The notes beneath the pieces are model-generated. The model had not been told where the DNA came from. It was given only the letters and a program-made list of their open reading frames with translations, and did no database searches. Of a DNA stretch of 45,659 bases, positions 7,204 through 28,598 are shown piece after piece; the stretch's first letter is position 1, and every line of letters begins with the position of its first letter. This DNA comes from Lysobacterales bacterium. GTDB taxonomy: Bacteria > Pseudomonadota > Gammaproteobacteria > Xanthomonadales > SZUA-36. Position numbers and translations under genes: made by a program. Where the stretch lies: contig JAOUCZ010000004.1 in assembly GCA_029859505.1 (NCBI GenBank), positions 1 to 45,659 on the forward strand. The letters run 5' to 3'.

Positions 7204-8144
7204 ATCCCCGCAACATAAGAACAGCAGTTTTCGCCTTTTGCATGGTGGTCATTTTTGCTGCGTCTGCTGGCGATATGTATAAATGGAAAGACGACAATGG
7301 TGTATGGCATTTCAGTTCAACCCCCCCCGAAACCGATCAGAACTATAAAACCGTTGAGATGCCGGCCGATCCGAAGCCAATGGTGGGTATGCGTAAACTG
7401 GGGCTCGATCGGGAGCCTGAATACTCATTTATCAACAATATTTGGGGGCCGGTAGAACTGGAGCTTGAGTTACATGATGCGGAAAACGTGATATCTGAAC
7501 CACCACTGCCGGCACGCCTCACATTGGCCGGTCAGACCGAGAAGCGCCTGCTGAAAATCCAGGCAGCTGATCCAACCCTGGGTTTCAGTTACCGCCTCTC
7601 CTACAGGCAGATGATCGGCCCGCCGCTTAACCAGCTGCCCCCGGAAGTTAACTACTACCCGCCGTTTCCGCATGGCCTGGAGTTTCCCATCAGCCAGGGC
7701 TTTGACGGTGATGCCACCCACAAGGAACCACCCAATCAGTATGCCGTGGATATTGTCATGCCCATCGGCACACCCATACTCGCCGCACGATCCGGTCGTG
7801 TCATGGATATGGAAGACGATTTTCACGGCGCAGCACAGCAAAAGCGCTACCTGACCCGTTCCAACCAAATTCGCATACTGCACGATGACGGCACCATGGC
7901 CGTCTATGCACATTTGCAGCCCAACAGCCTCAAGGTAAAGCAGGGGGTAATTGTAAAAAGAGGTCAGTGGATAGCGAATTCGGGGAACACCGGTTACAGC
8001 AACGGTCCGCACCTGCATTTTGTGGTTCAACTCAATGCCGGTATGTCGCTGGAATCCATTCCTTTCCGGTTTGTGACGCCAGATCTCGGCACCATGACAC
8101 CCTCCGACCGGATGATGATCAGTGGTGTAATTCCGGTTAAATAG
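7197..8144 (+). CDS. M23 (LytM-like) family peptidase with DUF4124-like N-terminal region
   Basis: N-term [20 protein letters not shown] (DUF4124-like). C-term [23 protein letters not shown]...[44 protein letters not shown] matches the M23 fold. Overlaps sdaA end by 7 nt. Confidence 0.88.
8087..8129 (+). repeat. 43-bp direct repeat, copy 1 (3' end of the M23 peptidase gene)
   Basis: CGGCACCATGACACCCTCCGACCGGATGATGATCAGTGGTGTA identical to 9505-9547. Confidence 0.95.
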
Positions 8145-8240
8145 TGCCGGGTTGTGGTCAGATCGACCTCGTCAATGCCGAAAAGAAAAAGCGCTTAAAA
8201 TTCAGTCTATTAGTAGCAGGGATACTGTAATTTATCTTGG

Positions 8241-9504: not shown

Positions 9505-9547
9505 CGGCACCATGACACCCTCCGACCGGATGATGATCAGTGGTGTA
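9505..9547 (+). repeat. 43-bp direct repeat, copy 2 (downstream of the OmpA-family gene)
   Basis: Exact copy of 8087-8129. The in-frame peptide [18 protein letters not shown] parallels the M23 C-terminus [18 protein letters not shown]. Confidence 0.95.
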
Positions 9548-9576
9548 CTACCGGTGAGATAGCACCGGTTGAAGAG

Positions 9577-26828: not shown

Positions 26829-27644
26829 ATGAGTACCTATCTGATTGGCGATATACAGGGTTGTTATAGCTCGCTTCATCGTTTGCTGGAAGCCATTCAC
26901 TTTGACCCGGAAAATGACCGCTTGTGGTCATGTGGTGACCTCGTCAACCGAGGTGGAAAATCACTGGAAGTATTACGCCTGTTAAAAAGCCTCGGGTCAT
27001 CGGTCAGTGTGACACTCGGCAACCATGATCTACACCTGTTAGCAAATTACCACCGGTATCCACAGGGAAATTCAGGCAATTCTGAATTTGATGCCATATT
27101 CGCTGCTCCGGAATGTGACGAGTTGATTGAATGGCTGATCAAATTTCCACTCGCCAGTTGGTCCGAGGAGTTTCAATTACTGCGTGTTCATGCCGGCGTC
27201 ATACCACAGTGGGACTGGCAGGCTGCGATCAGCGCATCTGATGAAGTATCCACAATTTTACAATCCGACCAGCGTGGTGAATTTTTCAAGCGAATGTACT
27301 CAAACAAGCCCAGGCTCTGGCGTGAAGAGAGAACCGGTTGGAAACGCGTGCGCCTGATTACCAATATTTTGACCCGCCTGCGTTTCTGCGATGAACTGGG
27401 CCGCGGAATCTATAACGTATCCGGCCCACCGGGATCCCAACCGAACCACTACAAACCCTGGTTCAAGCACAAACACCGGCAAACCCGGGATATCACCGTC
27501 GCTTTCGGACATTGGGCAGCGCTGGGCTTGCGTGTGAAAAAACGCTATTTCGCCATGGATTCCGGTTGTGTATGGGGCGGCAGGCTAAGCGCCCTGAAAC
27601 TGGAAGACCACACCATCTACCAGGTCAAGTGCACAGAAAACTAA
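26829..27644 (+). CDS. apaH: Symmetrical bis(5'-nucleosyl)-tetraphosphatase
   Basis: YLIGDIQGCYSSLHRLLE, WSCGDLVNRGGKSLEVLRLL, VTLGNHDLHLLA, VHAGVIPQWD. Confidence 0.96.
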   Translation: MSTYLIGDIQGCYSSLHRLLEAIHFDPENDRLWSCGDLVNRGGKSLEVLRLLKSLGSSVSVTLGNHDLHLLANYHRYPQGNSGNSEFDAIFAAPECDELIEWLIKFPLASWSEEFQLLRVHAGVIPQWDWQAAISASDEVSTILQSDQRGEFFKRMYSNKPRLWREERTGWKRVRLITNILTRLRFCDELGRGIYNVSGPPGSQPNHYKPWFKHKHRQTRDITVAFGHWAALGLRVKKRYFAMDSGCVWGGRLSALKLEDHTIYQVKCTEN

Positions 27645-27741
27645 TGTGGTGCGCAACAAGATATGCGCCACGCCATGACCCAATCTTACCTTTTGCCTTT
27701 GCACTTGATGGTTGAAATTTCATCAGGGCGCCAAGGCTGCA

Positions 27742-28049
27742 CGGTACCTTACTTCCGGACTCGCTCAGGCACATACCCCAGGGCACCCTCTCGACCGTTT
27801 TACAGTCTCACCTTGTCCATGTGTCGCTCATACTCGGCTTCCTGCCTCGTAAGGTCCTGAAGTAAGGTACCGCACACCCTCGGCTTTGTGGGTAACCTAA
27901 AAACGTTGGTTTCAGATAGAAGGACTTAGGAAAGGTTGAAGCTGGGGTGGGGTATTCACTTACCAGGACCTTACGAGGCAGGAAGCCGAGGAAGAGCCTA
28001 CACGGACGTACTTGCGGCGTGTCATGGTAAGTGAATACCCCGCCCCAGC
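27742..28049. repeat. Cluster of three interlocking long inverted repeats in the apaH-folA intergenic region
   Basis: Arms A 27742-27760/A' 27854-27872 (19 nt, 1 mismatch), B 27833-27859/B' 27964-27990 (27 nt perfect), C 27941-27965/C' 28025-28049 (25 nt, 1 mismatch). Confidence 0.93.
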
Positions 28050-28103
28050 GCCCCCACTTTGTGAACAGAAAGAACTTCAAGTAAAACCACCGCGTAATTG
28101 GCG

Positions 28104-28598
28104 TTATCCAAGTGTGCGGTTAAGCTCAATAATCCGGTAAGCAAGTTTGTTCTTGTCATCAACCGGAAAAAGTTCTTCGGAAATCTGTGACCATTGCCCA
28201 TCATCCCATTCGGGAAACCAGGTATCCGCCTCCGGTTCGATATCAATCAAGGTAAGCACCATTCGCCGTGCAAGCGGCAGGGCCAGCGCATATAACTGGC
28301 CTCCCCCGATCACCATGACTTCGTTGGATTCCGAAATATCAACAGCACCTTCAAGCGAGGTGGCAAGATCGACACCTTCAGCATGAAAGTCGGGATTCCT
28401 GCTTACTACGATGTTCTGGCGACCCGGTAATGGCCGGCCAATGGCCTGCCAGGTCTTGCGGCCCATCACGATGGACTTGCCCATGGTGGTCTTTTTAAAA
28501 TGCTGTAATTCTGCGGGCAAATGCCAGGGCATGCGACCTTCCAGGCCAATCGCCCTGTTGTTACCCATTGCTGCTATCAATGTGACCGACTTTTTCAT
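28104..28598 (-). CDS. folA: Dihydrofolate reductase
   Basis: IAAMGNNRAIGLEGRMPWHLPAELQHFKKTTMGKSIVMGRKTWQAIGRPLPGRQNIVVSR. Confidence 0.96.
   Translation of the reverse strand: MKKSVTLIAAMGNNRAIGLEGRMPWHLPAELQHFKKTTMGKSIVMGRKTWQAIGRPLPGRQNIVVSRNPDFHAEGVDLATSLEGAVDISESNEVMVIGGGQLYALALPLARRMVLTLIDIEPEADTWFPEWDDGQWSQISEELFPVDDKNKLAYRIIELNRTLG

Follow-up and report, generated by a model that had tools for sequence, protein, structure and literature searches.

Introduction

Dispersed palindromes of bacterial genomes were recognised decades ago, and most of them still lack a clear function. Insertions are taken by ERIC elements at fixed sites, and the attC sites of integrons are single-strand hairpins with free stem sequence. 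REPINs consist of REP sequences in pairs and are moved by RAYT Y1 transposases (PMC3116915), the single REP being 20–40 bp long (PMC3733652). ERIC and the other enterobacterial repeat units, the MITE-like RU-1 to RU-3, are palindromic intergenic elements of 100–170 bp (PMC2759123). At the RNA level, CsrA/RsmA sites follow defined rules (ANGGAN hexaloop; SELEX consensus RUACARGGAUGU; AC/GU closing), and one CsrA dimer bridges sites 10–63 nt apart, best above 18 (PMC7652899, PMC3791407). The decoy RNAs CsrB/CsrC and RsmX/Y/Z, sponges for CsrA/RsmA, come from dedicated sRNA genes, one to a few in number, and every such RNA has many GGA hairpins.

The three-way repeat in the apaH–folA gap of a Lysobacterales bacterium is one copy of a widely scattered, apparently uncatalogued DNA repeat of Gammaproteobacteria. 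It resembles REPINs in being an inverted palindromic pair around a spacer, located between genes, occurring also as singlets, and devoid of an internal gene and of a visible target-site duplication; it differs in its unit of ~120 nt with a three-way junction and ANGGAN tips, compared with the short REP. Size, intergenic position and palindromic nature are shared with ERIC and RU-1 to RU-3, from which the repeat differs in its unrelated sequence and in its taxonomic range. With CsrB/CsrC and RsmX/Y/Z it has in common GGA-loop hairpins of the ANGGAN type and two sites at bridgeable distance (PMC7652899, PMC3791407), whereas it occurs as tens of dispersed copies, each unit having two tips, and lacks a recognisable promoter. 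The single-strand hairpin with free stem sequence recalls attC; this assignment was rejected, as the aligned units have no GTTRRRY/RYYYAAC boxes at the base and the conserved part is the apex.

Results and Discussion

Architecture of the element in the apaH–folA gap

The window, i.e., the whole stretch of DNA that was analysed, comprises 45,659 nt. Within it apaH (26829–27644, plus strand) and folA (28104–28598, minus strand) are convergent and separated by 459 bp, in agreement with the ca. 460 bp of the initial annotation, and the three inverted repeats described there were all located: A, 27730–27760/27854–27884 (31 nt, 84%); B, 27826–27859/27964–27997 (34 nt, 94%); C, 27941–27969/28021–28049 (29 nt, 93%). 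Repeat B ranks top among the inverted repeats of the entire window. The RNA fold of the gap was far below shuffled sequences on both strands (z −5.5 and −5.6; 0/100 shuffles). In the minimum-energy fold of the plus strand A/A' and C/C' are formed; in that of the minus strand the long pairing of B with B' prevails, and B/B' is therefore a possible alternative fold of a joint transcript.

The element (27721–28058, ~335 bp, outer ends GGGCGC...GCGCCC) was delimited by covariance-model matches and alignment of copies; in it a single type of hairpin unit, ~120 nt long, occurs twice in inverted orientation (−/+) on either side of a 48-nt linker (27889–27936) that is partly conserved among the copies of the same genome (CATTGGTTTCAGATA). 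Unit 1 (27721–27888, minus strand; R1 covariance-model match 86.4 bits) is built on the inverted repeat A/A' (stem 27730–27760 with 27854–27884), unit 2 (27937–28058, plus strand; R1 match 117.6 bits, E 1.3e-25) on C/C' (stem 27941–27969 with 28021–28049); their apical parts are homologous. According to the two model matches the element is wider than the extent first given, 27742–28049. A/A' and C/C' are the two stems, and B/B' is the apical sequence common to both units, not a third stem. Because B and B' are the same apex in two inverted units, the order A-B-A'-C-B'-C' arises without pseudoknots; the three mutually exclusive or pseudoknotted hairpins proposed initially are not supported, the stems A/A' and C/C' being those that covary. 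The echoing peptides noted on both strands are mere translations of the repeats.

In unit 2 both tips, P2 and P3, are intact: the GGA of P2 (27981–27983, plus strand; GGC-AGGAA-GCC) lies within arm B', and the P3 hairpin (27999–28010, plus strand; UAC-ACGGAC-GUA) has a hexaloop of the ANGGAN type with C-G closure; the GGA of P3 (28004–28006) is 23 nt from that of P2. In unit 1 the GGA of P2 (27840–27842, minus strand; loop C-AGGAA-G) lies within arm B, and the P3 loop with its GGA (27816–27818, minus strand) is split by module b, a 42-nt hairpin (27774–27815, minus strand) recognised in the copy alignment directly after CATGGA; its removal restored the family consensus. Other copies carry module b in unit 2 at the identical loop position after CANGGA, and one copy in the P2 loop; the insertion is precise, following CANGGA in CsrA-type loops. 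Module b is itself a second small dispersed hairpin that is also found alone at the tips of other palindromes, at least three unrelated ones being recorded (window 27774–27815; L026, L029, L030, L034, L039, L041, L032). Elsewhere in the window a 64-nt direct repeat (8087–8150 and 9505–9568; 91% identity) is present, its copies 1.4 kb apart.

Copy number and distribution

The copy search with 27650–28100 suggested in the initial annotation gave 94 BLAST matches at more than 30 places of the same genome, which bears out the idea of a composite of dispersed intergenic repeats; at least 39 units of 60 bits or more were found there with the covariance model. Neighbouring pairs were in the outward −/+ arrangement without exception (10/10 in the same genome; 23/23 in the aligned set, linkers 30–442 nt). 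Of 61 relatives, 35 carry units, and most genomes of the same family are among these carriers. Across the class, units turned up in 73 of 370 sampled well-assembled genomes (63 genera); this figure is a minimum, since the number of candidates scored in each genome was small. Carriers include Marinobacter adhaerens plasmid pHP-187, Halomonas sp. PA16-9 and Ancylobacter plasmid pDCA; the consensus core had no match in 5,426 E. coli genomes. In one genome (G057) many unit matches are no more than a few hundred bases away from a contig end; assemblies thus probably break at the repeat, and the copy numbers are too low.

The apaH–folA gap of 12 family relatives measures 20–101 bp; the copy in the window is therefore an insertion, and it is lineage-specific. 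A congener (G005, locus L062) has a different palindrome (GAGCCTGTCGGATTTAAC...) in the same gap, and this convergent gap thus seems prone to insertions.

The initial annotation had allowed for a local rearrangement product, should the repeat prove single-copy and unconserved in relatives. Such a product, or chance palindromes, can be dismissed almost with certainty: after the copy search nothing spoke in its favour, and the 39 or more units of the genome, the class-wide spread and the covariation described below rule it out.

Nothing above the gathering threshold of Rfam was detected in the element or in 20 related loci, and relaxed thresholds returned chance-level hits only (e.g., mir-4667, RAGATH-5). 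The repeat was absent from the papers searched, and a search of the open full-text literature for the core sequences gave no bacterial paper.

Fold, covariation and strand selection

Each unit folds into a near-perfect P1 stem of 22–30 bp that ends in a three-way junction, from which the short hairpins P2 and P3 emerge; P1 runs for over 20 bp without a gap, and its sequence is nearly unconstrained. When 23 units were aligned by sequence only, compensatory changes were found in 23 of the 33 pairs predicted. In a larger alignment, of 104 distinct units taken from many genomes, each of the 33 pairs showed changes on both sides, 97.4% of cells were paired, and the covariation score was 0.837 (0.199 for shuffles; at most 0.122 for slid partners), although these counts lean towards structure because the alignment was fitted to the model. 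The structured molecule suggested in the initial annotation is thus supported by strong covariation across the aligned units.

Over 22 ungapped stem pairs in 136 units, 2840 Watson–Crick, 90 G-U, 7 A-C and 55 other cells were counted. The excess of G-U over A-C (~13:1) holds on one strand only. Under neutral decay or arm-to-arm correction of the palindrome, G-U and A-C are expected to be equal; quasi-palindrome correction was consequently rejected as the sole source of covariation, since it would not favour G-U over A-C on one strand. The one-strand excess indicates that the GGA-carrying strand is selected in single-stranded form, for which RNA is the more natural candidate, and we infer that the functional form would be the RNA of this strand.

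Tips of the units and the CsrA/RsmA match

Among 122 eight-nucleotide P3 tips the loop reads A-N-G-G-A-N: the A and the GGA are invariant (122/122), N is free and the C-G closure is kept in 121. The P2 tips obey the same ANGGAN rule in most relatives, and many of those in the genome studied are AGGAA pentaloops. The motif CANGGANG occurs on the GGA strand of 121/136 units vs. 2 on the other strand, and at 0.27/kb in the flanks. The 12-nt SELEX consensus RUACARGGAUGU was found exactly in 14 of 136 units and within one mismatch in 36; it never occurred on the opposite strand of the 136 units, nor in 587 kb of flank strands. The conservation of the tips is partly favoured by the way of collecting units, which relied on their similarity to a model. 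Two features of a CsrA/RsmA-binding RNA were observed in the units: the ANGGAN hexaloop on a short stem with C-G closing, and two sites 10–63 nt apart on one RNA, the usual GGA-to-GGA spacing being 23 nt.

Two csrA genes are present in the same genome. One is typical, its 65-aa product (MLILTRRVGE...VHREEI) being closely related to solved CsrA proteins; the second, shorter CsrA-like gene (L236, 177–368; 63 aa) departs from the usual sequence in its C-terminal part. A csrA gene was found in 35 of 36 unit-rich genomes, a co-occurrence that says little because csrA is common in the class anyway. One unit-bearing genome of 98% completeness (G233) gave no csrA hit, and its tips are nonetheless kept. 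An unusual number of CsrA-family matches, nine, was recorded in a unit-bearing genome of 2.1 Mb (G319).

A structural RNA or DNA element in which CsrA has no part might stabilise mRNA at the 3' end, be processed by RNase III, or serve gyrase or a nucleoid protein as a site in the manner of E. coli BIMEs. Such an element would account for the location at gene 3' ends and for the near-perfect 22–30 bp stem; it does not predict the invariant A.GGA tips or the spacing of the two tips, no terminator pattern was seen, and we regard it as improbable.

Genomic context and search for a mobiliser

The units sit at gene 3' ends; 25 convergent, 27 tandem and 3 divergent placements, taken from crude ORF calls with many loci left unclassified, indicate that divergent promoter regions are avoided. 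Single units between co-directional genes were oriented like these genes in 11 cases and opposite to them in 10, and this lack of strand preference speaks against a fixed function in cis within mRNAs. The element contains no promoter or terminator pattern. Target-site duplications were not found (shared flank words 3.0 vs. 3.2 in mismatched flanks), unlike in a classical DDE MITE. The 111 flanking proteins include no recurrent neighbour; they are products of diverse housekeeping genes, without a recurrent transposase.

Y1 transposase genes were found in 38 of 45 unit-bearing genomes; none was found in the genome studied (88.7% complete) or in several near-complete unit-bearing genomes (G269, G359, G380). 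Near 30 Y1 loci there was one strong unit and one weak partial match. REPs flank their own RAYT; here the Y1 genes are not flanked by units, and the genome studied has no Y1. A RAYT/Y1 transposase as cis-linked mobiliser was rejected on these grounds, the units being rarely near Y1 loci and Y1 missing from several carriers. Consequently the repeat cannot be filed as a REPIN: the inverted palindromic pair around a spacer is there, but units do not stand beside a RAYT gene of the same genome, and the alignments show no GTAG/GGAG-type tetranucleotide at the stem foot of a 20–40 nt palindrome.

A purely DNA-level element, REPIN- or MITE-like, is quite possible all the same, though somewhat doubtful. 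A transposase would act in trans on the folded single strand as its substrate, the tips would be recognition points of a protein on ssDNA, and CsrA would play no role. Dispersed inverted pairs lacking target-site duplications, as in REPINs (PMC3116915), the absence of strand bias relative to genes together with the strong avoidance of divergent promoter regions (25/27/3), and the wide occurrence of Y1 genes in carriers agree with it; the carriers without Y1, the single strong unit near 30 Y1 loci and the diverse housekeeping neighbours do not. The surplus of G-U over A-C is more in keeping with RNA than with ssDNA, and the exact match to the CsrA loop is left unexplained.

On pDCA of Ancylobacter novellus (L140, 1555–3064) two −/+ units enclose an ISAs1-family transposase; this pair adjoins a haloalkane dehalogenase gene, and pDCA is a conjugative catabolic plasmid. 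It is nevertheless very improbable that the unit pair represents the termini of an ISAs1-family insertion sequence, of which the copy in the window would be a transposase-less derivative: the case is single, and ISAs1 (PF13808) was detected in no more than 2 of the 61 relatives and was missing from the genome studied. An autonomous version with a gene between distant units was likewise rejected, as the candidate (L185) merely flanks an aroA-like gene.

Proposed role

Tentatively preferred, and considered close to an even call, is a non-autonomous mobile dispersed repeat whose RNA presents a two-site CsrA-binding module. In this proposal the functional molecule would be the RNA of the GGA strand, each unit would bind one CsrA/RsmA dimer across its two tips, and read-through transcripts from neighbouring genes would carry the units as CsrA-binding decoys. 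As the two units face away from the linker, one GGA-presenting unit would be made whichever side transcription comes from. A decoy function for CsrA may be inferred from these sequence features; its chief counterpoint is that single units have no strand bias. The lack of a promoter or terminator pattern, the carrier genome G233 with no csrA hit, the many AGGAA pentaloops among the P2 tips of the genome studied and the interruption of some tips by module b also speak against it. That class-wide mobile repeats spread a two-site CsrA/RsmA decoy RNA, tens of copies jointly tuning this global post-transcriptional regulator, appears rather unlikely at present, and a genome-dispersed CsrA sponge, selfish or domesticated, which belongs to the same decoy reading, would be just as conjectural. 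Judged by sequence, the units would not yet be filed as CsrA-binding RNA; they form a new family within a known kind, the dispersed intergenic palindromes, with an unexpected putative link to CsrA.

Conclusion

The repeat family occurs in about a fifth of the sampled gammaproteobacterial genomes, is strongly structured and bears a signature pointing to one named protein. This CsrA-type signature makes the old question of whether such repeats act as RNA directly testable. If CsrA binds, the dosage of the regulator would depend on the load of mobile repeats.
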